Assembly: GCA_910575255.1 (NCBI GenBank)
Contig: CAJTEM010000022.1
Location: 1 to 64,000, forward strand
Source: Lachnospiraceae bacterium
GTDB taxonomy: Bacteria; Bacillota; Clostridia; Lachnospirales; Lachnospiraceae
Direction of reading: 5' to 3'
Length of the DNA stretch: 64,000 nucleotides
Position 1 is the first letter of the stretch. Each line of letters opens with the position of its first letter. The notes beneath the pieces were generated by a model. The model was not told the origin of the DNA and searched no databases. It was given only the letters and a program-made list of their open reading frames with translations. This document shows positions 34,360 through 64,000 of this stretch, piece after piece. The position numbers were made by a program, and so were the translations under genes.

Positions 34360-35433
34360 TCACGTCAGCATCAGACGCCCTGTATGCGCAATCTTCCAAT
34401 CTTCCTTGTGGCATAGGAAATACAGGGTGGTCAGGCTCTCCCCCAGATAGCCGATATACCGGTCGGATCTTTCCCAGCCTCTGGGAACCGACAGCTCCTC
34501 CGTCCTCTGAAGGATCGGAAACAGCCAGCTGCAGAATCCACAAAAGATCTTCTTCCTGGCAACCAGCATATTATAATTATAGAAACAGGATTGGGAAAAT
34601 ATCTCCGGCAGCTTTTTTGCATATTCCGGATCCAGCTCCTCCAGAGCCGAAACCATCGCTTCCCAGTCACAATCTTTCACATAACGTCTGTGATGCTCCT
34701 CAATCGACGGATCATGGATCGTGGGATAGGGCAGGATGACATCAATGTCGCATGCCGCGATCCGCTGCAGGTCCTCCTGCGTGATATCCAGAATGCGCCG
34801 ATAATGGAACAGGCCAAGATAATCACTTTCCTCTCCCTCACACCCTTTGTTTTTCCAAATCCAATACAAAGCGGTCAGCTCACTGTAATTCCCGTTTTTT
34901 TCTGATATATGATCCCCGGTATTATCCTTTTCCAAAGCAACCGAAAGCTCTGTCAGGGCAGCTCCTGCCTGCACCGGAAAAAGCCAGCTAAAAGAGGGAC
35001 ATGGATTCCTTAGCACAACATCCTTGTGGAATCTGGTCATATAAACTCTCAGGGAAAGCTCTCCCCCCGCTGCCCCTTTTTGACCTGTTGGGAAATCATG
35101 AAGAGAGGGGTATTCCCCTGTGGCCTTATAATACCTTTCCATCAGAGCTGCTTCCCTGCGGGAATCTATGCACACATAATCTTTCCAGTTCCTTTCCTCC
35201 AGACCTTTCCGGATCGCCGGATGATGGTTTTCCGGAACCGCAATCAGGATTTTTACCCCCTTTTCGGATAATTCCTCCAGGGCAATCACCGGAATGCGGT
35301 CAATCTCTGCAGGATTTCCTTCCTTTTTACTGACAAGAAATGCGATGATCCTGCAATCCTTATATAAAAATTTTATCGCGGTATAGACACTTACGGCCAC
35401 CATACCGGCGCCATAGATTGCCAGGGATTTCAT
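34360..35433 (-). CDS. DUF4422 glycosyltransferase with N-terminal Rossmann module
   Basis: A 357-residue putative transferase. Residues 1-90 are the module shared across this locus (LAIYGAGMVAVSVY, then IIAFLVSKKEGNP and IPVIALEEL). The rest is DUF4422: RVYMTRFHKDVV, HISEKNGNYSELTALYWIWK, the conserved LGLFHYRR and YNYNMLVARK, then a GYLGESLTTLYFL end. DUF4422 proteins sit in capsule and LPS loci and are thought to be glycosyltransferases. It overlaps the cytidylyltransferase stop by ATGA and is followed by the repeat tract. Confidence 0.8.
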   Translation of the reverse strand: MKSLAIYGAGMVAVSVYTAIKFLYKDCRIIAFLVSKKEGNPAEIDRIPVIALEELSEKGVKILIAVPENHHPAIRKGLEERNWKDYVCIDSRREAALMERYYKATGEYPSLHDFPTGQKGAAGGELSLRVYMTRFHKDVVLRNPCPSFSWLFPVQAGAALTELSVALEKDNTGDHISEKNGNYSELTALYWIWKNKGCEGEESDYLGLFHYRRILDITQEDLQRIAACDIDVILPYPTIHDPSIEEHHRRYVKDCDWEAMVSALEELDPEYAKKLPEIFSQSCFYNYNMLVARKKIFCGFCSWLFPILQRTEELSVPRGWERSDRYIGYLGESLTTLYFLCHKEDWKIAHTGRLMLT

Positions 35434-36140
35434 TTCATCCAGTCCTCTCTTTCCATATTGAGAAGCGCCTTAAACACCTCCAGATCATCTATGGTAGTGA
35501 TCTTCACATTTTTCTCCGTCCCTCTGGAAAAATACACCCGCTCCCCAAGGCGGAGCATTAAGGTATTAATATATACCTCGCCCCGGATTCCCCTCCGCGC
35601 CGCCTCCTCATATGCCCACAAGGCCTTCCCATACCGATAAGCCTGAGGCGTCTGGACACGCATGATCTCCTGACGACCGATATTCTCATCCCCCGATATT
35701 CCGTCCTCTGTCCTTACAATCGTCTCCTGACATCGGACCGCACTTAGGCCGGAACCCTTTTTCTGACATACCGCAATTGCGTCACAGATGACTTCCGGTG
35801 TGATAAACGGGCGGATTCCGTCATGGACAATCACCACATCCTCCTCCTGGCAGATATCCCTCAAGGCCTCCATCCCCTTCTGGGTAGACTCCTGCCCGTC
35901 ACTGCCTCCGCTTACCACCCATTTCAGTTTTGTGATCTGATACTGCCTCGCATAAGCCCTCAGAACCTCATGCCATCCCTCCAGACACACTACCAGAATC
36001 CCGTCAATATCCGGATGCTGCTGAAAATTCTCCAGGGTGTAAATGATCAGCGGCTTTTCATACACGTTCATAAACTGTTTCGGCACATCCTGCTGCGTCC
36101 TGCTTCCACAGCCCCCTGCCAAAATCAAGGCTATATTCAT
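35430..36140 (-). CDS. IspD/TarI-like cytidylyltransferase
   Basis: A 236-residue nucleotidyltransferase that joins CMP to a sugar-alcohol phosphate or similar. The CTP site is ILAGGCGSRTQQDVPKQF (6-23), the catalytic region VIVHDGIRPFI (about 104) and RVQTPQAYRY (about 164). In this setting, as in teichoic-acid-type loci, a CDP-polyol (CDP-ribitol or -glycerol) is a more likely product than the isoprenoid intermediate. The start at 36140 is ten bases after AGGAA; a GTG three codons upstream is possible. It overlaps the DUF4422 gene downstream. Confidence 0.82.
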   Translation of the reverse strand: MNIALILAGGCGSRTQQDVPKQFMNVYEKPLIIYTLENFQQHPDIDGILVVCLEGWHEVLRAYARQYQITKLKWVVSGGSDGQESTQKGMEALRDICQEEDVVIVHDGIRPFITPEVICDAIAVCQKKGSGLSAVRCQETIVRTEDGISGDENIGRQEIMRVQTPQAYRYGKALWAYEEAARRGIRGEVYINTLMLRLGERVYFSRGTEKNVKITTIDDLEVFKALLNMEREDWMK

Positions 36141-36245
36141 CTCTGTCACTTCCTGCGCTTTCTGTCTGTGTTGCTGTCCCGGTTTCTTTTTATACTTTCC
36201 GCTGCGTGCTGTCTCTGCCTCTTCCTATCCTGACCGGATGATGCA

Positions 36246-36968
36246 CTAACCTCTCTTTTCCACGGATTCCTCCGGATGCTTCATCCGGTACAAGGCCTTG
36301 AACATCTCCACATCCTCTACGGTATTAATCTTCATATTCAGGCTGGAACCCTTGGAAAAATACACCTTTTCCCCCAGATTCGTCAAAAGAGAACTGTTGT
36401 CCCAGGCACCCAGGCAGTTCTTTTCAATGGCCCGGTTATGTACATCCCAGATCAGTTCAAAGTCAAACGACTGAGGGGTCTGGACTTTCATAATCTCATA
36501 CCGGTTAATACTCTTATAGCCTTCCTGTCCGTCCCAGGAATGCATGATTGTGTCCATAATATAGGTAGCCGCCACCCCCATGCCTTTTTTCCTGCACATC
36601 TGCATGCTCCTGGTTATGATCTTCTCCGACACCATGGGACGGATGGCATCATGGATGACCACCATATCCCCTCTGCCCATCCGACCGCGAAGAAGCATCA
36701 GCCCCCGGTATGTAGATTCCTGGGCATCCTTCCCACCGGGAATGATCTCCTTTAATTTTGTAATGTTAAACTGACTTCCGTAAACCCGCACCATCTCCTG
36801 CCATCCATCTACACAGGTAACGATGATCTCATCAATATCCGGATGGTTCTGGAAGATCTCCAACGTGTAGACGATAATGGGGCGGTTGTTCACATTGACA
36901 AATTGTTTCGGTATGTTCATCTGGAAGCGGGGGTCTATGCCTCCGGCCAGGATCAATGCTGTGTTCAT
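36246..36968 (-). CDS. IspD/TarI-like cytidylyltransferase, paralogue with altered CTP loop
   Basis: A 240-residue paralogue of the gene just downstream: same plan, with ALILAGGIDPRFQMNIPKQF (4-23), VVIHDAIRPM and KVQTPQSFDFE. The GxGxR part of the CTP loop is changed to GIDPRF, losing the second Gly, although Arg and the PKQF Lys remain. It may prefer another substrate or be slow. The ATG at 36968 has AAGGAG ten bases upstream. A 91-base gap lies between it and the DUF4422 gene upstream. Confidence 0.78.
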   Translation of the reverse strand: MNTALILAGGIDPRFQMNIPKQFVNVNNRPIIVYTLEIFQNHPDIDEIIVTCVDGWQEMVRVYGSQFNITKLKEIIPGGKDAQESTYRGLMLLRGRMGRGDMVVIHDAIRPMVSEKIITRSMQMCRKKGMGVAATYIMDTIMHSWDGQEGYKSINRYEIMKVQTPQSFDFELIWDVHNRAIEKNCLGAWDNSSLLTNLGEKVYFSKGSSLNMKINTVEDVEMFKALYRMKHPEESVEKRG

Positions 36969-37058
36969 GTCTTGGGTTCTCCTTGCATCATTGCCTGTCA
37001 TAATATAAAAAATCCTGATATCAAATATCAAAATATGTACTCTGCTTTGGGTATGCCT

Positions 37059-48858: not shown

Positions 48859-50037
48859 TTAGTCATTCACAATCAATTTTCCCCATCTTCCCATCACATT
48901 CTCCAATCCATACATAGCAGCTCTCCTTAAAGACCGCTCCTTATATATTTCATAAAGTTTCTCATCATCTAAAACCTTAAGCAGTGCCTCACCCAAAAGA
49001 ATTTCCTTATCAGAAAGTTCCTCCCCAAATGATACCTTCCCCGTTATAAACGGCGTTCCAATACCATAAGGACCATACTTGATTTCATTATCTACAGATT
49101 CATAATTCTTTAATCCTATGATCTGTCCGCATGCCCCAGGACAATCTGTGGTAACAACTGGGAGACCATGAGCCATGGCCTCAACCATACTATTTGGAAA
49201 TCCCTCCGCCATAGAAGCCATCACGAACACTCTGCTATGTTTCAGGTAATACCCCGTTTCACTTGTAAATCCAATAAAAAAAACAGAATCATCAACTTCA
49301 TACTTTTCACATAAACGTTGTAAATACTTTCTATTAGGTCCCACTCCCAAAATAAGTAATGTAGCCTCCGGTTGATGAGATTTTACATAAGAAAAAGCAC
49401 GAATAATCCGTTCCTGCTGCTTGACCGGCTCCAATCTCCCAACGCAGATCACCGCTTTCTCTCCATAGACCCACTCGCGCTCTGTCTCTATTTCCTCCGC
49501 TTTCATCGCCGGATTAGGAATCTCAATCAATTTTTTACGTGCAATACCATAATTTTTACACATATCCTCTTTTCCATAACGGCTCATCACAACTACCCTG
49601 TCAGCTAGGCTGTAAAGAGAACGAACCATATTTTTATTAAATAAAATTCCTTCCAGATCATTCCTCTTAGAAAGAATAGTACAGATTCTGGTTATTACCC
49701 TCTCCCTTCCCCGCGATAAAACATTAATATAATTACACTCCTCCATGAAACTTATACAGACATCAATATGGTATTTCCATTTCCATCTGCGCATCAGGCA
49801 AGATGACCATAATAATCTAAAAAGAACTTGGACATTACCATATATCACATTTTCTTCACACCTTTTTATGCCTGTATATATGATCTGACCCTTCACAGGA
49901 TAAGCCTGCCCGATAGATGATTCTAGCAAAAAATAAAATACTTTCTCTCCCTTTTCACAATAATAATCCCCAATAATTTGGGCTACCCGCTGTGCGCCGC
50001 CACCTCCCAGTTCCGGAATCAGTATGGCAATATTCAT
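48859..50037 (-). CDS. GT4 family glycosyltransferase
   Basis: A 392-residue GT-B enzyme. It begins NIAILIPELGGGGAQRVAQI, the glycine-rich acceptor loop of GT4 enzymes; the C-terminal half has KAVICVGRLEPVKQQERIIRAF, VFVMASMAEGFPNSMVEAMA with the catalytic Glu and GLPVVTTDCPGACGQII. GalNAc- or hexose-adding enzymes of this shape occur in capsule loci (PglJ/PglH-like). It is followed 19 bases later by the second GT4. The product specificity is not visible. Confidence 0.87.
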   Translation of the reverse strand: MNIAILIPELGGGGAQRVAQIIGDYYCEKGEKVFYFLLESSIGQAYPVKGQIIYTGIKRCEENVIYGNVQVLFRLLWSSCLMRRWKWKYHIDVCISFMEECNYINVLSRGRERVITRICTILSKRNDLEGILFNKNMVRSLYSLADRVVVMSRYGKEDMCKNYGIARKKLIEIPNPAMKAEEIETEREWVYGEKAVICVGRLEPVKQQERIIRAFSYVKSHQPEATLLILGVGPNRKYLQRLCEKYEVDDSVFFIGFTSETGYYLKHSRVFVMASMAEGFPNSMVEAMAHGLPVVTTDCPGACGQIIGLKNYESVDNEIKYGPYGIGTPFITGKVSFGEELSDKEILLGEALLKVLDDEKLYEIYKERSLRRAAMYGLENVMGRWGKLIVND

Positions 50038-55097: not shown

Positions 55098-56255
55098 TCA
55101 TACCCACACAATGTAATTGTGAATATAATCATCCAGCGTTTCTGAACAATTTAACAGAGTAGAAGAACACTGCCTTCGCAGTATCCGCTGGTCAAAATGC
55201 AAGTCCAATGCTCTTTTCACACAACCATAAACAGGCATTTCCATTGCGTCCAATGTTCTGCTCAAAACTATTTCTTCCTCAATCGGTATAGAAAGCATGC
55301 TCAAGATCCTTCTTCCCTTCTCCGCGATGATCTCCTCCGAAGGATGAAAGGGTTCATAAAACAACAATTTCTCATGATAATTTCTTTCTATATAATCCGA
55401 AATACGAATATCACATTTTTCTTCCCGGCTCTTTAGTTTTTCCATTTGCGTACAGAAATTATTCAGTATAGATTGTTCATCCCATATATCGTCATTAAGA
55501 ATGGACCCCTTTATTTCTTCAACACTTCGTCCATTCTTATAACATTCGTCAATATACTGGTCTCTCTTCCCGATACTTTCGGCTGAAACCCTAAGCCTCT
55601 GCCCGCTTATCGGATCGTAACCGTTCATATCTACCGCATGTTTCTGCAAATGCCTTTTTATCTGCTCATCATCAGGGAAATAGCTCTGCATAAAAAACAA
55701 ATTGCATCCATATAAATTTGGAATCACAATCTTTATTGCATCAGGTTTCAATCGTTTCATCAATGATTCTGCGCCAGGCATTTTAAAATCATTCTCTTCT
55801 CTGATATCCTGCGTTAAAAATAGATCGCAGCTTTTCAACTCCATGTCTGAAGGAGCTTTTCCTTCCCCCACATAATAATAGCGAATGAAATATCGTTTGG
55901 AAAAATAATAATTCAATCGCAAATATTCACACAGCTTTTCCATATGGCAATTTCCATAAACAATTGCCAGTTTTGACTTTTCATAAAGCTCGCTATGGAT
56001 AAAATCCAAAAATTCATTCAAACCATTTTCAATCAGTGTGTCACGAATTTCCAAAAATGTCTGATAGGCAGCTGCAATTACTGTATAGCACTCCTTTAAT
56101 TCATCTATTTTTTCATCCAGGGAATAAACATATTTATTATGAAAATATCTATGATTTCTTTTATCAATGCAATAACTAATTCCATTTGGATTACTAATAC
56201 GACAATAAAATTTTTCTCCTTCCAAACCTGTCCCATACAGTACAATCTTCTTCAT
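55098..56255 (-). CDS. WcbI-like polysaccharide enzyme with N-terminal Rossmann module
   Basis: A 385-residue protein. Residues 1-90 resemble the shared module (KKIVLYGTGLEGEKFYC, then VIAAAYQTFLEIRDTL). From about 93 the chain is WcbI-like (LAIVYGNCHMEKLCEYLRLN, IRYYYVGEGKAPSDMELKSC), a family of capsule enzymes that I recall as putative acyltransferases. The start at 56255 follows AAAGGAA; a longer reading to 56300 overlaps the upstream gene and lacks a site. It is probably co-transcribed with the two genes upstream. Confidence 0.72.
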   Translation of the reverse strand: MKKIVLYGTGLEGEKFYCRISNPNGISYCIDKRNHRYFHNKYVYSLDEKIDELKECYTVIAAAYQTFLEIRDTLIENGLNEFLDFIHSELYEKSKLAIVYGNCHMEKLCEYLRLNYYFSKRYFIRYYYVGEGKAPSDMELKSCDLFLTQDIREENDFKMPGAESLMKRLKPDAIKIVIPNLYGCNLFFMQSYFPDDEQIKRHLQKHAVDMNGYDPISGQRLRVSAESIGKRDQYIDECYKNGRSVEEIKGSILNDDIWDEQSILNNFCTQMEKLKSREEKCDIRISDYIERNYHEKLLFYEPFHPSEEIIAEKGRRILSMLSIPIEEEIVLSRTLDAMEMPVYGCVKRALDLHFDQRILRRQCSSTLLNCSETLDDYIHNYIVWV

Positions 56256-56292
56256 AAACTTCTGTTTCCTTTTTTCGTCCCACATTTGTTTC

Positions 56293-57453
56293 TCAGTCAT
56301 TTTTTATAGTGTTCCAAATACATTCACCCAAGGATTCTTTGTTTTGTCCTTTTTCCGTTTTACTATTTTCTAATGATATAAAAAGCCTCAGATAGTTTTG
56401 TTCTTCAGTAAAAATCATTCTCCCTGTCTCCAAATGGATCTTCCATTCATCTTTAATTTTGGGCGGCACTACTTTTATCCACTCTATCATTTCAGTATAC
56501 TTATTAATACGCAATACATAGTTTGCTGTCCGGTTTGCAAACCAAATATATTGTTTATCCTCCGTATAACCCCAATATTTTGACCATCCTGATTCATGAT
56601 ATTCCAAATCCTTCGGATACTGATCATGTTCCTTAACTTCATAACTCTGTAAATCAATAATCAATATTTTCCCAGATAAAGCAGGAAGCAAAAATATCTT
56701 ATGATCCGTTACAGCAATCCTACTGAATGATAGCTCTCTATCACTACAATGATAAATTCTTTCAATCCCATCTAAAGTGCCATCCCACGCATACAAATCT
56801 TTATTCATAGAAAGTATGTAAAATATATCATTACTAAAAACAATATATTCGATATCTGATAATTCATAAGGAATATCAATAGACTCGTAGTTGAGATCCT
56901 TAAAGTTCATCCTTATGGCCTTATTTCTGTTCCTTTCAAACAAATACACCCAGTTATTACATTGAACAGAACACCATAACTGCATTTTTCCCTTTCTATT
57001 TATTTTAAAATCTTCATTTGAATAGTTCCATGGATACACCGCATATTTCTTTTCCTGAAGGTCAAATTCAATCCTGGTCAAACCATTTCTTGGGAAAATA
57101 AATAACTTTTCATTATATAAATAGATACCAGCAAAACATTGGCATTCAATCATTTCAACTGTTGGCAACGGATACTCATAATACTTATTCTGTTCAGTAT
57201 TATATTCATGTATATACGTTCCATATTGATCGACCCAATAAATGCTTGATTTATCCGCAAACATATTGTCTATTACCGGATGATTTATCCATCCATTTAG
57301 ATTTTCTAAATTAATATAGGAAGATTTCTTCGTATCAACATCTATATTCATAAAATATCCTTCTGTAGATACAAACCACACTTTATTCTTATTCAATATA
57401 CAATTACTAAAGTTAACTTTTTTATCCTTCAAGTAATTTCCTCCTATATTCAT
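56293..57453 (-). CDS. Predicted cytoplasmic beta-propeller protein of unknown function
   Basis: A 386-residue protein with no signal peptide. It shows repeating blocks of about 45-50 residues, each with an aromatic strand such as NKVWFVSTEGYFMNIDVDT, SSIYWVDQYGTYIHEYN and KLFIFPRNGLTRIEFDL, as in Kelch or WD-type propellers. The ATG at 57453 follows GGGGAGGG by five bases. It is rich in Trp, Tyr and Asn and has a strongly AT-rich gene. The setting suggests a role in glycan building, perhaps as scaffold or acceptor-binding part. I do not recognise a named family. Confidence 0.6.
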   Translation of the reverse strand: MNIGGNYLKDKKVNFSNCILNKNKVWFVSTEGYFMNIDVDTKKSSYINLENLNGWINHPVIDNMFADKSSIYWVDQYGTYIHEYNTEQNKYYEYPLPTVEMIECQCFAGIYLYNEKLFIFPRNGLTRIEFDLQEKKYAVYPWNYSNEDFKINRKGKMQLWCSVQCNNWVYLFERNRNKAIRMNFKDLNYESIDIPYELSDIEYIVFSNDIFYILSMNKDLYAWDGTLDGIERIYHCSDRELSFSRIAVTDHKIFLLPALSGKILIIDLQSYEVKEHDQYPKDLEYHESGWSKYWGYTEDKQYIWFANRTANYVLRINKYTEMIEWIKVVPPKIKDEWKIHLETGRMIFTEEQNYLRLFISLENSKTEKGQNKESLGECIWNTIKND

Positions 57454-57496
57454 AATTCCCTCCCCTACATTTTGGTCAGACAACAATTAATTATAT

Positions 57497-58582
57497 CTAT
57501 ATATTTGCGTATAATACTGTTTCGCATATATTTGTCGCATAATGGCGAATTCCTAATTTATATTCCGGAACTAAGTTCAATATATATAGCGCTAATTCAA
57601 TCACATCATATGGTTTATGATAAATACAGATTGCCAGCTTTGGTTTACACCGTAATATAGTATTTTTTGCTCCTTCTAGTGCTCTTAATTCGCTCCCTTC
57701 AATATCCATCTTAATATAGGTTACCTTTTCACTCCCTACCAAATCATCGATAGTCCTCCCATCAACAACCAGCGTCCCCTGCGATTTTATGCGAGAACCT
57801 TCCCTATCTTCATAAAAATTCAATTTCTCATTTTTATCCCATACAGCACACTCGGATATATCAACATTATGAATACCTTCTATTTCAAATTTATTACAGA
57901 GAATTCTATACATATGTGGTAAGGGTTCAAATACAAATATTTTTTTATAGTTTCCTTCTGTCCATGAAAGAAAATCCATGACTGTAGAGCCATCATAAGC
58001 TCCAGCATCAACATATACCTCTTGCTGTTCACAAGCAAAATAATCAAAATACTGCTTTCCTAATATCCCCCATAAAACTCCCATATGTTTTGGCTCCACA
58101 ATTTTATTTTCGGGATATCCTCGTTGCAACAAAATGTCCACCATCTCTTTTCCATATTTTAAAGAACCAATAATAACTAAATCGTTCATTCCACATTTTT
58201 CTATCATTTCATCGACAGAAATAACCGGTATTCCTTCTACAATGCTCCCGTAATAGTTACTATCACAAAAACACTTTATAGATAATCCACAAAATTCTAA
58301 TACTCTTTTATTTCTTTTCCCATATTCTCCACAGCCAAAAATAACAAACTCCGCATTATGTATATCTTTATCTAACAATTCAAGACATGACCATGTATCA
58401 TTTAATTTGCTTAAAGTGTTATAAAACTTATCCATATCTCCATCTATCATATAATCAACTCTGGCATCAAATAGGATTTTTGATCTTTCATCTACCAAAG
58501 CATTTTTTATATATTGAATATTCTGTAATTTTTCACTCCAAGTCATTTTTTCAAAATAAGAAAGTGATAAATCTTTAATCAT
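57497..58582 (-). CDS. FkbM family methyltransferase with N-terminal Rossmann module
   Basis: A 361-residue protein. Residues 75-175 hold the shared module (AEFVIFGCGEYGKRNKRVL, CFCDSNYYGSIVEG, IPVISVDEM). The FkbM methyltransferase follows: VYVDAGAYDGSTVMDFL as SAM motif I, FVFEPLPHMYRIL, and IKMDIEGSELRALEGA. FkbM-type enzymes O-methylate sugars of glycans. The ATG at 58582 follows AAGGAG by 11 bases. It lies next to the luxC-like gene, where base composition changes sharply. Confidence 0.83.
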   Translation of the reverse strand: MIKDLSLSYFEKMTWSEKLQNIQYIKNALVDERSKILFDARVDYMIDGDMDKFYNTLSKLNDTWSCLELLDKDIHNAEFVIFGCGEYGKRNKRVLEFCGLSIKCFCDSNYYGSIVEGIPVISVDEMIEKCGMNDLVIIGSLKYGKEMVDILLQRGYPENKIVEPKHMGVLWGILGKQYFDYFACEQQEVYVDAGAYDGSTVMDFLSWTEGNYKKIFVFEPLPHMYRILCNKFEIEGIHNVDISECAVWDKNEKLNFYEDREGSRIKSQGTLVVDGRTIDDLVGSEKVTYIKMDIEGSELRALEGAKNTILRCKPKLAICIYHKPYDVIELALYILNLVPEYKLGIRHYATNICETVLYANI

Positions 58583-58615
58583 TATATTTTCTTCTCCTTG
58601 ACCCACTTTGATTTT

Positions 58616-59845
58616 TTACACTATCTCCCTCGTCAACCTCTCCCCCAAATCCATCCCATCCCACACAAACCCAAACTCCATACTCTTCCCAACCTCCACC
58701 ACCCGGTCAATCCCCTTCACGCCAGACATAACCAAAGGCTCCATTCTCTTTTTATCCCCCACCATCACCACCGTCTGCACCTTCCCGTTGCAGATCGGCG
58801 CCAATTCCATAACATCCCCAATCTCACACTCATAGAACATCCCCGAATCCCCCCGGTACTCCTGAATCACCGGGTCCAGGTCTTCCACCTCCACCCTCAC
58901 GATCCGGTTGTCCCTCATTCTCACCACGTGCACTCCCTCTGCCTTGGCAGCCGCCATGCAGCAGTTCACCAGCTTATCCACATACTGAACCGGTTGAAAC
59001 ACATATCTCTCCTCCACCACTTTCCAGAGCCGCTCCCAGAACAACTCCTTCACATGCCCCATCTTATCCTTCTCCCCCAGCCAGCACACCAGCCTTGGAG
59101 AAGTACAGGCATTCTGATCCGTCAAATACGTGTCATTATAAAAATCCACAGCCAGCCTGTCCTTATCCTCCGCCCCCATATACGCTTCCGCGTCAATCAC
59201 ACACAAAGAATACCTATCCCCAAACGTAATCTCCCCAGCCCTGGCCGGAAGTTCTGACTTCCTGATCTCTCCGATTGTACTGTCCCCGCCCCAGATCACA
59301 CGCACATCACAAATCGAGGAAAAATAATCATTGATCTCCCGGTTCCTCTCATACCTCACAAAAACAATAGAGTCCCTCCACTTCTCATACTCCCTTTTCT
59401 CCAGCACTTTTTTTATGGCCCGGTTAATGATCTCCACCTGGGGAAACTCCTTAGAAGGCAGACGGACAATCCCTCCATTCCCCAGCACGAATCCCACGGC
59501 AAAGGAATAGGCATAATTCACTGCCACATTAGACGGCGCAATATGGAACACCACACCCCGCCCCATCCGGAGTCCGCCCCGGGAAAGGAACCTCCTCCTC
59601 TCATGCTCCATGCCGGCCTTCCGAATCCAGAAAGCAAAGGTCACCACATCCGGGTACCCCTTAGCCTCCCTGTCCGCCAGCAGTTCCCTGGAAACCTGGT
59701 TCAAAAAATCAATCCGGCTCTCCTCAAAAGGCACCCCCGCCGGCAGTCCCGGCATTCTCCCTATAATCCCCTCATCACCAAGCTCAAACCGAAGCCCCTT
59801 AAAAATTCCCTCCATAAGTATCACTGCACCCCCTGATCTCCGCAT
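58616..59845 (-). CDS. LuxC-like acyl-CoA/acyl-enzyme reductase
   Basis: A 409-residue reductase of the LuxC family, which reduces an acyl thioester to an aldehyde with NADPH. The fold has HIAPSNVAVNYAYSFAVG (101-118), VRVIWGGDSTIGEIRKS and the active-site Cys 247 in DQNACTSPRLVCWLG. The ATG at 59845 is eight bases after GGGGGAG and overlaps the luxE-like stop. Together with LuxE it would turn an activated acid to an aldehyde inside a polysaccharide locus. Bioluminescence is not indicated: no LuxAB is present. Confidence 0.88.
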   Translation of the reverse strand: MRRSGGAVILMEGIFKGLRFELGDEGIIGRMPGLPAGVPFEESRIDFLNQVSRELLADREAKGYPDVVTFAFWIRKAGMEHERRRFLSRGGLRMGRGVVFHIAPSNVAVNYAYSFAVGFVLGNGGIVRLPSKEFPQVEIINRAIKKVLEKREYEKWRDSIVFVRYERNREINDYFSSICDVRVIWGGDSTIGEIRKSELPARAGEITFGDRYSLCVIDAEAYMGAEDKDRLAVDFYNDTYLTDQNACTSPRLVCWLGEKDKMGHVKELFWERLWKVVEERYVFQPVQYVDKLVNCCMAAAKAEGVHVVRMRDNRIVRVEVEDLDPVIQEYRGDSGMFYECEIGDVMELAPICNGKVQTVVMVGDKKRMEPLVMSGVKGIDRVVEVGKSMEFGFVWDGMDLGERLTREIV

Positions 59846-60902
59846 TCTTCAGTCTCCCCCTTACGGAAAAATACTTACCCTTCCGCCCGCAGGGACAATC
59901 ATCCTCCCCCAGAATCATCCCCTCATCCTCCGTCAGAAGACAATGACCAGGATAAGACTCAGGAATCGCCGACACTACCTGGATAATTCCCTTCTCTCCA
60001 ATTCCGCACACCGAAAAATCCTCCGGCCTCCGGACAATCACATCCGAAAAAACACTGGCATGAAGATGCCCATACTCACACTCCATGTAAATGCACCCAG
60101 TCTGCTCCACCATTCCATAATAATCATGAATCTCCTTAAGGCCGCACACCTCTCCCAGCCTGTCACAAAACTCCCGCCGCGACACCGCCTCACTCTCCAG
60201 CCTCTTCCAGCCTCCCCCGTGAATCAGTATCCCATTAGACAAATCCAGCCGGACTCCCCTCTCCTTTAGCCTTAAAAGCTCCTTATAAAAATGCTGCCAG
60301 ATCATGAAGGTAAATCCAAAAAGAAAGATCCGCTCTCCCTTATGCCTCTCCAAAAAAGAGACAACCCCCTCCACATCCAGCCTCATCTCATCATCCAGTC
60401 CATAGACCCTGTCCCTGCCAAAAATCGAAAACCCAAGGATTCCCGCCCCCCTGGCGCTGAACATGGCCCGGTTCTTCACCACAGAAGGACAATCAAGAAT
60501 CATCATAGGCATCCTAGCATTTCCCGTAAAAGAAGACACAAGCTTCACCAGCACCTTCTGCTGATACCCCGCCGTCCTCCGGTCCACATAGATTTTCGAC
60601 ACCCGCTGCCCGCTGGTCCCCGAAGAAGTCATGGTCTTTACAATCTCCCCCTCAGGAACACTCCTTAACTCCAGCTCCTTAAACAGCCGCACAGGAAGAA
60701 AAGGCAGGTCATAATAAGAATTCACCCTCCCCAGATCAACACCAAAAGCGTCAACCACCCTCTGGTACTCCTCACACGCCCCATAATGCTGCCTGGAAAG
60801 ACCAATCAACCGCTCCCCTAGAACCCTCTCTTTCTCCCCCTTTTCAAGAGAATAAGGCTTTAGTTCCAACATCTCCTCAAAGCCGCCCATGCCATCACCC
60901 AT
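59799..60902 (-). CDS. LuxE-like acyl-protein synthetase
   Basis: A 367-residue member of the LuxE/PaaK-related group. It activates a carboxylic acid with ATP and passes it to LuxC. The adenylate loop is TSSGTSGQ at 92-99; VIVRRPEDFSVCGIGEKG and DCPCGRKGKYFSVRGR (near 333-350) match the C-terminal part. The first Met of several near 60902 is taken as start without a strong ribosome site. It overlaps LuxC downstream by 47 bases and follows the AMP ligase by 17 bases, so the three make a coupled set. Confidence 0.87.
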   Translation of the reverse strand: MGDGMGGFEEMLELKPYSLEKGEKERVLGERLIGLSRQHYGACEEYQRVVDAFGVDLGRVNSYYDLPFLPVRLFKELELRSVPEGEIVKTMTSSGTSGQRVSKIYVDRRTAGYQQKVLVKLVSSFTGNARMPMMILDCPSVVKNRAMFSARGAGILGFSIFGRDRVYGLDDEMRLDVEGVVSFLERHKGERIFLFGFTFMIWQHFYKELLRLKERGVRLDLSNGILIHGGGWKRLESEAVSRREFCDRLGEVCGLKEIHDYYGMVEQTGCIYMECEYGHLHASVFSDVIVRRPEDFSVCGIGEKGIIQVVSAIPESYPGHCLLTEDEGMILGEDDCPCGRKGKYFSVRGRLKNAEIRGCSDTYGGNF

Positions 60903-60919
60903 ACTTCCACATCCAATCC

Positions 60920-62335
60920 CTACTCTTCCATATATTTGTTCAGTTCCTGATACAGCACCTTCCCCGAATCATTTCTGGGAATTTCAGGAATCACTCTCAC
61001 CCGAAAAGCCGAAGGATTCAGCCCCGTTTTATGAGAAAGAAATTTCCTCACTTCCTCCTCCAAAGCCCCCTCCGTAATAAAACAATACATCTCATCATCA
61101 CGCCCAGAGCTTACACAGTCAAGATTCCCGAACCTGGCCTTCACCAGACGGTCAATCTCATCCAGATTCACCCGGTTGCCAAAGATCTTCAAAAACCGCT
61201 TCTTCCTCCCCACAATATAGTAATACCCGTCAGAATCAAACTTGGCCATGTCCCCTGTCTCCAGACGCCCATGACGTTCATCCCCCTTAGCCAGGTCTTT
61301 TCCACACTCTCCATAACCCAAAGTCACATTAGGCCCCTCATACACCAGCTCCCCTACCCGGTCCGGTTCCCTGATTTCCCTCCCATCCACATCCATAAGA
61401 GAAAATTTCCCGCCCGGTATAGCGATCCCCATACTCCCGTACTTTTCCAGAGATCGCTTATAAGGCAGATAAGACATTCTGGCCGTAGCCTCCGCCTGCC
61501 CGTACATCACATAGAACCGCTTTCCATGCTCTATGGCATACTCCGCAAACCTCCTGTGAAGCTCCGGCTGCAGTTTCCCCCCCGCCTGAGTCATGGTCCT
61601 AAGAGAAGGAAGCTCCATTCCAAAAAACCGCAGCTTCTCCAGCATCTCATAAGTATAAGGAACCCCTCCAAAAGAAGTAGCCCCCTCCCTCTTAAAAAAT
61701 GTCCAGAAATCCTTCTGCATCAGTCCCTTGTCCGTCAGCAGAATCTCCGCTCCCACCAACAAATGACTGTTGATAATCGACAAACCATATGTATAATTCA
61801 TAGGAAGAGTCGTAATGGGCCGCTCCCCCTCATCCAGCTCCAGATACTCCACAATGGCCCTGGCATTGGACAGTACATTCCCATAGCTCTGCCTCACTAA
61901 CTTCGGACTCCCCGTAGAACCAGAAGTCGTAAGCAAAAGACACAGCTCCTCATACAACCCATATCCCCTCTCATACCCTGTTCCAAGAAGCACATACCCA
62001 AAAGCCTGATACCTGACAGCAAAACCCTCAAACCTGTGTGCCAGCTCCTCCGGCACCCACAGATAATCCGGCCGGTAAATCTCCATAAGCCCTGCAAGAA
62101 GCTCCTCATCCAGATTCCGGGCCAAAAGCAGAGGCACCGAGCCCCCGTTAATACACCCCGTGTACCCCGCCAGGCTTCCCATAGTATTAGAACACAAGAC
62201 AAAGACCAGACTCCTTTCCCCCAGCGCTTCCCCAAACCGCCGGTTCTCCTCCTCCAGTTCTTCATAATACAAAGTTCTTCCCCACTCATCTGCGGCGGCC
62301 ACACGGCCAGAAAACTGTCTGAAATCCCACATCAT
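60920..62335 (-). CDS. AMP-forming acyl ligase (acyl-CoA/acyl-ACP synthetase family)
   Basis: A 471-residue ANL-superfamily ligase that adenylates an organic acid and loads it onto CoA or a carrier. Motif TTSGSTGSPK lies at 136-145; YGQAEATARMSY and GRLETGDMAKFD are A5/A7-type motifs and NDSGKVLY near the C terminus holds the catalytic Lys. The ATG at 62335 is six bases after GAGGA; the longer reading extends into the relB promoter region. The carrier protein at 63432 is the natural partner. No specificity code can be read. Confidence 0.85.
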   Translation of the reverse strand: MMWDFRQFSGRVAAADEWGRTLYYEELEEENRRFGEALGERSLVFVLCSNTMGSLAGYTGCINGGSVPLLLARNLDEELLAGLMEIYRPDYLWVPEELAHRFEGFAVRYQAFGYVLLGTGYERGYGLYEELCLLLTTSGSTGSPKLVRQSYGNVLSNARAIVEYLELDEGERPITTLPMNYTYGLSIINSHLLVGAEILLTDKGLMQKDFWTFFKREGATSFGGVPYTYEMLEKLRFFGMELPSLRTMTQAGGKLQPELHRRFAEYAIEHGKRFYVMYGQAEATARMSYLPYKRSLEKYGSMGIAIPGGKFSLMDVDGREIREPDRVGELVYEGPNVTLGYGECGKDLAKGDERHGRLETGDMAKFDSDGYYYIVGRKKRFLKIFGNRVNLDEIDRLVKARFGNLDCVSSGRDDEMYCFITEGALEEEVRKFLSHKTGLNPSAFRVRVIPEIPRNDSGKVLYQELNKYMEE

Positions 62336-62430
62336 GCTTCTTCCTCTCTTCAACAACCACCAGGATATATTGACAATATAAATAAATTTTAATACAATAT
62401 ATCTATCAATAACAAGGTGAGGTACAACCA
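62336..62430. promoter_or_regulatory. Divergent intergenic region with relB promoter and palindromic operator
   Basis: For the plus strand, TTGACA (62370-62375) and TACAAT (62393-62398) are spaced by 17 bases. The palindrome TATATTG-A-CAATATA (62366-62380) overlaps the -35 box and has the form of an autoregulatory operator bound by RHH antitoxins. GAGG lies eight bases before the GTG start of the antitoxin. No certain promoter for the divergent ligase gene was found. Confidence 0.7.
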
Positions 62431-62697
62431 GTGGCACAAACAAATATCAATATACGCATGGACGATACATTAAAACAACAATTTGAACACCTCTGCAATG
62501 AACTCGGCCTGACCATGACAACCGCCTTTAACATTTTCGCCAAGACAATGGTTCGCCAGCAGGGAATCCCCTTTGAAGTTTCCCTGAATACCCCCAATGC
62601 CGAAACTCTGGCCGCTGTTGATGATGTCAATCACGGAAGAAATCTCAGCAAAACCTTCCACAGCGTTGCCGATCTTATGGAGGATTTAAATGCTTGA
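62431..62697 (+). CDS. RelB/DinJ family antitoxin, no toxin gene beside it
   Basis: An 88-residue RHH-type antitoxin with a GTG start. It opens TNINIRMDDTLKQQFE, then ELGLTMTTAFNIFAKTMV, the standard RelB/DinJ DNA-binding fold; the tail ending SVADLMEDLNA would wrap around a toxin of the YafQ/RelE kind. No toxin follows: the next 15 bases lead into the opposite-strand thioesterase. It may be a relic or work with a distant toxin. It sits within an otherwise continuous minus-strand operon. It probably represses its own promoter. Confidence 0.85.
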   Translation: MAQTNINIRMDDTLKQQFEHLCNELGLTMTTAFNIFAKTMVRQQGIPFEVSLNTPNAETLAAVDDVNHGRNLSKTFHSVADLMEDLNA

Positions 62698-62711
62698 TGT
62701 ATCCCCCTTCT

Positions 62712-63416
62712 TCACAAATATTTATCCAAATGTCTGTTCACAATTCCCGCCATTTCGCTGTAATACTGATGAACAAAAAAATGATTATCCCCTAATTCAT
62801 AAAAATCAGTATTGCCTTCCGTCAAATCCCTCCAGCCATACGCATTAGCAGACAACGGATCCTTGGGACTGTACATAACTGTTGTATCACAAGGAATTTT
62901 CTTCCCGATTTCCCTGTACTTATACTGAGACCAGACCATATAATCCCGTCTCACCGGTTCCATATAAATCTTCAAAAACCTTTGATTCTCAAGAATCCTT
63001 CGGTCAAACCCTCCCAACTCCATCATCCGCTTCACAAACTCATTATCCGACAATTCGTGATACCTCTGACTTACACTCTCGTCCCTCAAATCTCCGCGGG
63101 CACAGATAAAGCAATGCTTCAAATCTCCCCCTATCTTTCTTTTCGTAATAAGATCAAAGGCTAAAACACTCCCCAGACTGTATCCCAGAACCGCTATAGG
63201 AAGATCACTGCGCCTTCCATGAATATAACTGGCCACATCCTCTAAAAACTTTTCATAATCAGTGATATAATCTTCTTTATACCGACTTAATCTTCCCGCA
63301 TATTCTACGCTGATAACCTCTATATGGCTGTCAAGAAGATCTGTCAGCCGCTTAAAAGAAGCAGAATTTCCTCCTGCAAATGGCAGGAGAAATAATTGTA
63401 TTTTCTTCTTATTCAT
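62712..63416 (-). CDS. Type II thioesterase (GrsT/TesA-like)
   Basis: A 234-residue alpha/beta hydrolase that frees or edits acyl groups on a carrier. It opens QLFLLPFAGGNSASFKRL; the nucleophile is Ser 80 in GYSLGS, the Asp is in YSPKDPLSA near 188 and the His in LGDNHFFVHQY near 213. Type II thioesterases usually go with carrier-protein systems, in line with the carrier gene 15 bases upstream. It could clear misloaded carrier or release the product. No release of fatty acid chains of a set length can be predicted. Confidence 0.88.
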   Translation of the reverse strand: MNKKKIQLFLLPFAGGNSASFKRLTDLLDSHIEVISVEYAGRLSRYKEDYITDYEKFLEDVASYIHGRRSDLPIAVLGYSLGSVLAFDLITKRKIGGDLKHCFICARGDLRDESVSQRYHELSDNEFVKRMMELGGFDRRILENQRFLKIYMEPVRRDYMVWSQYKYREIGKKIPCDTTVMYSPKDPLSANAYGWRDLTEGNTDFYELGDNHFFVHQYYSEMAGIVNRHLDKYL

Positions 63417-63431
63417 AGTATCTTATATTGC

Positions 63432-63671
63432 CTAAAACTCTATATCATAGTTTTTTTCTAGGATTTCCTTGCCCTTTTCAAAAGAGCTTAAATCTATAAT
63501 ATCATCTGTATCCATCATAATATCAAATGTATCTTCCAATGCAGCTATCAATGTCATATGACCAACAGAATCCCATTCATTAATATCCTGATACTGCAGT
63601 CCACTTAATTTATTTTCATCAATTTCAAAAGTCTGCATAAATATCCGTTTATACTTCTCAATATTTCCCAT
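63432..63671 (-). CDS. Acyl carrier protein of the acyl/aldehyde branch
   Basis: A 79-residue carrier. The attachment site is Ser 35 in EWDSVGHM, followed by a helix LIAALEDTFDIMMDTDDI. It differs from the fatty-acid AcpP of 18502 (GADSLD), and WDSxxH is more like carriers of secondary and glycan-acylation pathways. It is the likely carrier for the acid activated by the ligase and reduced by LuxC/LuxE. It lies between the transketolase-like gene (about 50 bases) and the thioesterase. Confidence 0.85.
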   Translation of the reverse strand: MGNIEKYKRIFMQTFEIDENKLSGLQYQDINEWDSVGHMTLIAALEDTFDIMMDTDDIIDLSSFEKGKEILEKNYDIEF

Positions 63672-63719
63672 TTTTCTCTTTCTCCCTATCCTTTATAATT
63701 CACTTGTAGATAATAAACT

Positions 63720-64000
63720 TCACTTAAGTTCTGATATGATTGCTTCCTTTATATATGGTGCGGTAAGGTGGCTTGTTTGCATCACATGCGAATAAGCCCC
63801 TACATGAGGAAACCTATCATCAATACCCAGTCTTATCAGTCTGCAAGGTATATTCTTATCAGAAACTATTCCGGATATAATACTGCCTAAACCACTGCCT
63901 CTAAAATGTTCTTCAACGGTTATTATGTATTTATATCTGCTGATAATACTGGCCAGTTCCCTATCATCTACAGGTTTTAAACAACAAATATCATATAATG
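63720..64000 (-). CDS. Transketolase-like C-terminal subunit, 3' part (5' end outside window)
   Basis: The last 93 codons of a gene entering from the right; the stop TGA is at 63722-63720. The peptide includes KPVDDRELASIISRYKYIIT, then VEEHFRGSGLGSIISGIVSD and RLGIDDRFPHVGAY. This is the C-terminal domain of transketolase/DXS-type subunits (the VEEH...GGLGS pattern), which are often split into two short genes in such loci. It would be a thiamine-diphosphate enzyme moving a two-carbon ketol. Its N-terminal partner must lie beyond the window. Identification rests on these motifs alone. Confidence 0.75.
   Translation of the reverse strand, partial: LYDICCLKPVDDRELASIISRYKYIITVEEHFRGSGLGSIISGIVSDKNIPCRLIRLGIDDRFPHVGAYSHVMQTSHLTAPYIKEAIISELK

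Follow-up and report, generated by a model that had tools for sequence, protein, structure and literature searches.

A split transketolase beside carrier, ligase, LuxE and LuxC genes in a surface-glycan locus of a Lachnospiraceae bacterium: a putative route to a polyhydroxylated acyl group

Contig CAJTEM010000022.1 of a Lachnospiraceae bacterium (assembly GCA_910575255.1) carries, within a surface-glycan locus, an operon in which a LuxC-type reductase, a LuxE-type synthetase, an AMP-forming ligase and an acyl carrier protein (ACP) are encoded beside a complete split transketolase (TK). The window, i.e. the whole 64,000-base stretch analysed, represents bases 1-64000 of this 94,011-base contig; the operon continues past 64000, and contig coordinates are used there. 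These genes may build a short polyhydroxylated acyl group, extended by two carbons and transferred to a surface-glycan amino sugar, a reading to which we give a probability slightly under one half. The new evidence of this analysis is a changed acceptor site in the transketolases that accompany the set, together with a fit to measured glycan masses that lack assigned genes. Domain assignments of window proteins are from Pfam, and NCBIfam equivalogs were used for some families.

58616-59845, minus strand: LuxC-type acyl reductase (activated acid to aldehyde); PF05893, 4.4e-24
59799-60902, minus strand: LuxE-type acyl-protein synthetase feeding LuxC; PF04443, 6.7e-54
60920-62332, minus strand: AMP-forming ligase, likely loading a carrier with an acid; PF00501, 4.6e-41
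62712-63416, minus strand: type II thioesterase; PF00975, 5.1e-23
63432-63671, minus strand: acyl carrier protein with W-D-S-V-G-H; weak PF00550 (PP-binding) match, E 0.006, below the Pfam cut-off
63720-64688 (contig), minus strand: TK-C, the C-subunit of the split transketolase, cut at the window edge (63720-64000); Transketolase_C
64685-65509 (contig), same operon: TK-N, the N-subunit of the split transketolase; 4-base overlap with the TK-C gene
65512-66249 (contig), operon, upstream of TK-N: SDR, FabG-like reductase
66182-67237 (contig), operon, upstream of SDR: double hot-dog FabZ-like protein
67314-67967 (contig), operon: NeuD/PglD-type hexapeptide transferase (acyltransferase)
67995-69122 (contig), operon: DegT aminotransferase
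57497-58606, minus strand: FkbM-type methyltransferase, a candidate O-methylating enzyme, starting 9 bases after LuxC; PF05050

The families and minus strand of the six genes from LuxC to TK-C, as given in a preliminary description of the window, are confirmed by Pfam, weakly so for the carrier. What had been called a transketolase-like subunit is a transketolase, more exactly the C-subunit of a complete split pair, and the DNA beyond 64000, to which that description had pointed for further genes, holds the N-subunit together with the FabG-like SDR, the FabZ-like protein, the NeuD-type transferase and DegT. Some details are amended: a plus-strand RelB gene (62431-62697) had been passed over, the ligase start, most likely at 62332 rather than at the TTG at 62443, is shifted, and the LuxE and LuxC genes overlap by 47 bases.

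Catalytic residues are intact. LuxC Cys247 is kept in at least 93% of 34 aligned rows, and the same lower bound holds for the C-terminal Cys359 of LuxE (32 rows), the P-loop and Lys458 of the ligase (26 rows) and the carrier W-D-S-x-x-H, which includes Asp34-Ser35 (25 carriers). GYSLG is present in the thioesterase, whose close relatives among the set loci are found in L033 and L035 only (loci are numbered L and genomes G). LuxE has one solved relative, LuxE 7xc6; no solved structure is related to LuxC by sequence at E<=0.1. The first region of the double hot-dog protein matches FabZ, with HFPG and an MPG...E motif. The NeuD protein is nearest to PglB-type and perosamine N-acetyltransferases, and DegT to sugar aminotransferases, e.g. 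2po3 and perosamine synthetase.

The LuxE and LuxC families and a thioesterase are common to this operon and the luxCDE genes of luminous bacteria, whereas ligase, ACP and TK are extra here and the thioesterase belongs to PF00975, its identity with LuxD not being established. Scores lie far below the NCBIfam lux equivalogs (LuxE 68.4 bits against a cut-off of 550, LuxC 30.7 against 750), and the operon proteins scanned include no luciferase, as had been described. A remnant of bioluminescence genes is therefore ruled out.

The transketolase acceptor site

The ThDP motif, catalytic Glu and ketol-donor histidines identify the pair as a transketolase (EC 2.2.1.1), and the split TK chains of Carboxydothermus hydrogenoformans (6yaj, 6yak) are the nearest solved relatives of both subunits. 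DXS was considered and ruled out, since the nearest solved relatives are split TK and three of the four donor histidines are kept in every row. In TK-N, the GDG Asp, the Asn, H30, H69 and H263 are present in 14/14 set rows, the fused L041 row being outside the length limit of the table. The residue roles in these alignments are partly those that we take to apply.

All 15 TK-C rows of the set have the catalytic Glu, H481 and R528, and 12 have R359; S386 is variable, and the window's own TK-C retains R359, S386 and R528. The equivalents of yeast H469 and D477 are both changed in 15/15 rows, the first to A, G, S or N and the second to Q, F, S, L or G, and the full sugar-phosphate acceptor site (yeast R359, S386, H469, D477, R528) is not present in the set TKs. 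Eleven of 15 other TK-type rows retain both residues, several rows being near-copies, so that the 15 versus 15 counts are not independent. Two of the eleven are TKs of this same genome that adjoin transaldolase-family genes. The C. hydrogenoformans split TK has kept His and Asp, whereas the set TKs have lost both. The survey found and read 37 TK-C places; row L065_6130_8037 (a misaligned TK-N/SDR fusion) was omitted, and the 15 other TK-type rows do not include 11 that are DXS-like by score and length (L092-L095, L101, L115-L120). The Asp is kept in 10 of these 11.

What might such a change mean for the enzyme? We take E. coli TK H461 to be the counterpart of yeast H469. In the E. coli enzyme, H461 is associated with the substrate phosphate, H461S has better activity with propionaldehyde and glycolaldehyde, and D469T, D469A and D469S have higher activity with propionaldehyde (PMC3657141); D469 corresponds to yeast D477 (PMC5573996). 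Loss of the two acceptor contacts is thus suggestive of a changed acceptor, short of proof.

Recurrence and context of the gene set

LuxC is not common in this order. Among 392 genomes (the own genome included in the counts), it has matches in 31 at E<=1e-5 and in 18 at E<=1e-50. Within the fetched stretches, TK lies near LuxE/LuxC in 11 of these 18 (G000, G022, G058, G071, G124, G132, G160, G179, G185, G259, where it is the fused form, and G272), so that the genome search that had been proposed does find the set repeatedly in one locus. A named-genome scan gave three close relatives, L033-L035, with LuxC identity of 68-88% and TK in the stretch of two. A phylum-wide search matched LuxE in 6 of 398 genomes (E<=1e-20), a count that includes this genome. 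Plasmids carry it as well: of 34 records with LuxE, 10 come from Rhizobium, and each of these has a TK-C match within ~6 kb of LuxE. The one Rhizobium record viewed holds TK-N, TK-C, ACP, ligase, LuxE, LuxC, SDR and FabZ in one region, along with a PglD-type transferase split over two reading frames.

Other sets show no TK in the stretch. Such a set, with ACP, SDR, ligase, LuxE and LuxC, occurs in Ponticoccus, Deinococcus and Nonomuraea, and L034 has a glycerophosphotransferase-like gene, DegT, NeuD, SDR, ACP, ligase, LuxE and LuxC; the latter fits TK as an optional extension. On a LuxE tree of 32 rows, 17 of them labelled TK, the label changes seven times, at least four changes being forced by well-supported branches. 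Only 7 of 500 label shuffles are as low as 7 changes (mean 10.9), and the label is thus clustered on the tree; the several changes rule out one simple origin of the TK linkage.

Two other components recur unevenly. The hot-dog protein is matched in 2 of the 392 genomes at E<=1e-26, the own one and G058, where the gene sits between two TK pairs; it may belong to the pathway. A hydrolase is present as the thioesterase in the window, L033 and L035, as a metallo-beta-lactamase-like protein in L044 and L066, and, by similarity, as the latter type in L067 and L068. Loci L049-L052, L067 and L068 have LuxC, LuxE, ACP and ligase with no TK; in L049 a CoA-transferase adjoins them, and by eye other acyl-CoA metabolism genes lie nearby. 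These loci may represent a separate pathway that uses the same module.

The preliminary description knew of no pathway with this exact set, yet as a gene list the set is not new. The flagellar region of Dickeya zeae EC1 (W909_12275-12315) has a near-identical list, LuxC, LuxE, FadD, TktA, TktB, two FabG, ACP and an acetyltransferase, placed between flagellar genes; there the genes are taken for fatty acid biosynthesis, and a role in flagella is judged unlikely (PMC4522980). A shorter such list is given for four strains (PMC6206727). Dickeya is of another phylum, and thioesterase and hot-dog protein are absent from its list. In Aeromonas group II flagellin islands, ACP, 3-oxoacyl-ACP reductase, AMP synthetase, LuxE and LuxC adjoin pse genes (PMC7874193), and the word transketolase has 0 occurrences in that paper's text, whereas the window set has TK. 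Enterobacterial flagellin glycosylation islands contain the TK-less set too, and for these as for the Aeromonas islands it is read as fatty acid synthesis. A tested function for the TK-containing set is not assigned in the excerpts of the Dickeya, enterobacterial and Aeromonas papers, the literature covered being open-access and a report elsewhere being possible.

Is there a characterized relative? The rfb region of Vibrio cholerae O1 presumably has a LuxC-like reductase, a transferase and a perosamine aminotransferase, and we know of no transketolase in its tetronate route; the genes by which we define this type of pathway are partly our assumption. Carrier, ligase, LuxE/LuxC-type reductase, N-acyltransferase and sugar aminotransferase lie in one locus here as well. 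The V. cholerae rfbK-O route, which places 3-deoxy-L-glycero-tetronate on perosamine, likewise has a carrier and an AMP ligase for a hydroxyacyl in an O-antigen locus, and RfbL activates 2,4-dihydroxybutanoic acid and attaches it to CoA or to the carrier RfbK (PMC12208996). The roles of RfbL and RfbK support the kinship that had been proposed; the earlier reading of the genes as an acid-to-aldehyde set within a surface-glycan locus is supported too. In the window set, LuxE and LuxC are separate proteins, and SDR, FabZ-like protein and thioesterase are extra. It also has what a V. cholerae O1-type pathway should lack, an enzyme for C2 extension: the complete TK pair in the operon suggests the two-carbon step that had been surmised and predicts an acyl group longer than 2,4-dihydroxybutanoyl.

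The glycan context was compared in 14 TK-set loci (L002, which is the window's, L033, L035, L036, L038-L046 and L060). Amino-sugar transferases are present in part of them: an N-acyltransferase family occurs in 5/14, as NeuD/PglD in L002, L038 and L060 and as PseH in L042 and L043. In L043/L071 the TK set adjoins PseB and PseH (NCBIfam equivalogs), a cytidylyltransferase, a Maf-type MptE-like protein and a flagellin gene, and the TK-less set of L066 is accompanied by PseG, PseI and PseH equivalogs, a cytidylyltransferase and a Maf-type protein; both thus have the marks of flagellin glycosylation islands. L042 has a PseH equivalog and L053 (no TK) a GNAT that resembles it, and NeuB-family genes lie beside the set in L033 and L069. 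Between 25093 and the window edge, where many but not all frames were scanned, and in the operon beyond, no flagellin, Maf or pse genes were found.

Some of these neighbours would also allow the acyl group and the transketolase to serve separate ends. TK might add a C2 unit to a nucleotide-sugar 4-ketone and so form a branched sugar, with LuxE/LuxC serving a separate acyl group; YerE, which adds an acetyl unit to such a ketone, would be the model. RfbF- and RfbG-like genes directly follow the TK pair in L042, and on a Paenibacillus plasmid (L065 2849-8960) a TK pair lies next to annotated rfbF and rfbG, along with a methyltransferase and with no LuxE/LuxC in the stretch; the TK-C of this pair has also lost the H469 and D477 equivalents and perhaps acts on a keto sugar. 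However, a sugar 4,6-dehydratase-type gene is present in just 3/14 TK loci (RfbG-like in L042, PseB in L043, Polysacc_synt_2 in L036; one query per kind), and TK accompanies LuxE/LuxC in Clostridia, Rhizobium and Dickeya. We consider a branched sugar unlikely. In the preliminary description the product was to be an unusual branched or acyl-derived glycan part; branching is possible, but the amino-sugar acyltransferases and the versions that lack TK agree better with a straight-chain acyl.

DegT, NeuD, hot-dog, SDR and TK genes in a single operon could also be read as the making of an amino-alcohol, sphingoid-like head, where TK would join a ketol to the aldehyde to give a 1,3-dihydroxy-2-ketone, DegT would aminate it and NeuD acylate it. 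This seems very improbable, as DegT is similar to perosamine synthetase and NeuD to perosamine N-acetyltransferase, L034 retains DegT, NeuD, ACP, ligase, LuxE and LuxC with no TK in the stretch, and DegT is found in only 2/14 TK loci (the window and L033).

A putative route and the glycan masses

How might a polyhydroxylated acyl group be made? The starting compound would be a hydroxy-diacid, in the simplest case L-malate; LuxE would activate one of its carboxyls, which LuxC would reduce to an unphosphorylated aldehyde. The split TK, with its two usual acceptor contacts lost, would add a two-carbon ketol, and reduction of the new ketone by the SDR would yield a polyhydroxy acid of six carbons, which in the case of malate is 2,4,5,6-tetrahydroxyhexanoate, a 3-deoxyhexonate. 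The neighbouring methyltransferase, whose relatives lie inside the sets of L033 and L035 too, could O-methylate the acid, and in some variants the FabZ-like protein could dehydrate it. The AMP ligase would then load the acid onto the carrier. The DegT aminotransferase would provide a nucleotide sugar, and to its amino group the NeuD-type transferase would move the acyl. With TK absent, the same logic would end at a C4 acyl, 2,4-dihydroxybutanoyl, as reduction of the far carboxyl of L-malate should give 2,4-dihydroxybutanoic acid. That the product in this organism is exactly the malate-derived C6 acid is perhaps so, and rather doubtful.

Measured glycan masses can be set beside these products. 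Flagellin of Aeromonas AH-3, whose island has the TK-less set, carries a pseudaminic derivative of 376.14 Da (PMC7874193). Formula enumeration gives 376.148 for Pse5Ac7Ac with one acetyl replaced by C4H6O3, and within 0.02 of 376.14 the only other formula is the implausible C7H2O; the 2,4-dihydroxybutanoyl product expected with TK absent fits this sugar. The AH-3 glycan also ends in a 102 Da unit (PMC7874193), equal to the nominal mass of C4H6O3, and no link is claimed. Addition of the TK unit C2H4O2 leads to 436.169, and a further methyl to 450.185. The flagellar glycan of Treponema denticola reportedly has a 2-methoxy-4,5,6-trihydroxyhexanoyl on N7 of a pseudaminic-type sugar; the proposed route followed by O-methylation would give this group. 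The structure was known to us before the mass table was made, so the agreement is not a blind prediction. The glycan is an unusual O-linked one of 450.2 Da (PMC9481697 for the mass), for which five formulas fit at a tolerance of 0.05, C7H12O5 among them. A methylated C6 polyhydroxy acyl, the product with TK, fits this mass, and the pathway might explain the odd sugar decoration on T. denticola flagella.

The family names LuxC, LuxE, FabG, FabZ and ACP call to mind a fatty acid that is turned into a fatty aldehyde or acyl group and lipidates the glycan, and the Aeromonas and enterobacterial island papers propose a liposugar component (PMC7874193 for Aeromonas). The operon proteins scanned include no ketosynthase, however, the mass of the 376.14 Da sugar agrees with a C4 hydroxyacyl, 2,4-dihydroxybutanoic acid is the acid described for the V. 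cholerae ligase (PMC12208996), and a fatty route leaves TK unexplained; a liposugar appears quite unlikely.

Several points weigh against a polyhydroxylated acyl group as the product. Substrates, step order and product are what we infer from gene families. Both acceptor residues are lost in 4/15 non-set TKs as well (L065, L090, L091, L097), and among yeast TK variants D477E performs best on aliphatic aldehydes, D477T giving just a two- to fourfold gain in kcat/KM with a lower kcat (PMC5573996), so that Asp loss is no proof of acceptor type. H103 is replaced in 5/14 set TK-N rows (it is kept in 9, the window's own included). No TK is present in the fetched stretch of 7 of the 18 strong-LuxC genomes (G091, G093, G178, G193, G241, which is a 5 kb contig, G262 and G335), and L033, L035, L036 and L039 have two LuxE-LuxC pairs each. 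The FabZ-like protein needs a 3-hydroxyacyl substrate and the proposed product has no 3-hydroxyl; the window product may thus differ from the Treponema one. The thioesterase, or metallo-beta-lactamase-like hydrolase, has no place in the scheme. A pseudaminic-type sugar with a single acetyl is assumed in the mass fits, which leave isomers undistinguished (O-methylglyceroyl, too, is C4H6O3), and the possible link to T. denticola consists of a mass and a reported acyl structure. Because the NeuB matches of this genome are on other contigs, pseudaminic acid may not be the acceptor here, which could instead be a 4-amino sugar. Finally, 9/14 TK loci have no known amino-sugar acyltransferase in the stretch. 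Four of the nine encode a protein of ~350 aa (L039 9467-10534, L044 10908-11945, L045 16198-17235, L046 4008-5045), a candidate new transferase family, GNAT-like by eye only; no Pfam match was found for the three scanned (L039, L044, L045), and L046 is a near-copy of L045. The other five have neither in the stretch.

If the proposed route is correct, it would give a biosynthetic logic to glycan-island gene sets now labelled fatty acid biosynthesis and link them to measured glycan masses so far with no assigned genes. It would also direct attention to transketolases naturally adapted to simple aldehydes, a property that biocatalysis groups have tried to obtain by mutation. A wider proposal, tentative and on the whole doubtful, is that malate reduction and TK extension form a widespread modular route to polyhydroxy acyl groups of surface glycans, with a natural class of TK for unphosphorylated aldehydes, that it explains both the Aeromonas 376 and T. 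denticola 450 Da sugars, and that the acceptor-site changes parallel those of laboratory evolution (H461S, D469S).

Mosaic structure and surroundings

Alignments show the locus to be a mosaic. Window bases 58629-63599 compared with L033 show 95.7% identity in LuxC-LuxE-ligase and 81.5% in thioesterase-ACP, and the upstream halves differ among the window, L033, L034 and L035. Could the genes then be unrelated neighbours in a capsule locus, with TK making an ordinary sugar precursor? The blocks of different identity and the differing upstream halves would allow it, but the set recurs in Clostridia, Rhizobium and Dickeya, and acceptor residues are lost in 15/15 set TKs against 4/15 others; chance neighbourhood is highly unlikely.

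Other features of the locus are as follows.

62431-62697, plus strand: RelB-family antitoxin gene, between ligase and thioesterase; PF04221
69217-70761 (contig), operon: glycerophosphotransferase-like gene (weak likeness)
55098-56300, minus strand: WcbI-type polysaccharide enzyme, downstream glycan context; PF18588

The RelB gene is not thought to be part of the pathway. It lies in a segment (62353-62705, 353 bases) that is absent from L033, which matches both flanks, and that occurs once in this genome; the open-reading-frame list has no separate toxin frame beside it, and the segment looks like a stray insertion. Gaps from the glycerophosphotransferase-like gene to a glycosyltransferase at 48859 are at most 94 bases, the exception being the 379 bases between thioesterase and ligase that hold this opposite-strand gene. 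Just upstream of the operon are a gene with a Cas12f1-like TNB domain (TnpB-like; contig 71103-72533, L002 13103-14533) and a serine resolvase (contig 73949-74551, L002 15949-16551), possible agents of operon mobility.

Downstream of LuxC follow FkbM, a protein with no Pfam match, WcbI, glycosyltransferases, asparagine synthase, a UDP-sugar dehydrogenase and an epimerase. Two adjacent IspD-type cytidylyltransferases (35430-36149, 36246-37031), together with the glycerophosphotransferase-like gene, suggest a polyol-phosphate polymer in the same locus. The Pfam-less protein (56293-57486, ~400 aa) possibly belongs to a repeat-rich, propeller-like family, and by eye similar proteins are encoded in L033 (13200-14474), L034 (11374-12657), L035 (11274-12542) and L105 (14208-15299).

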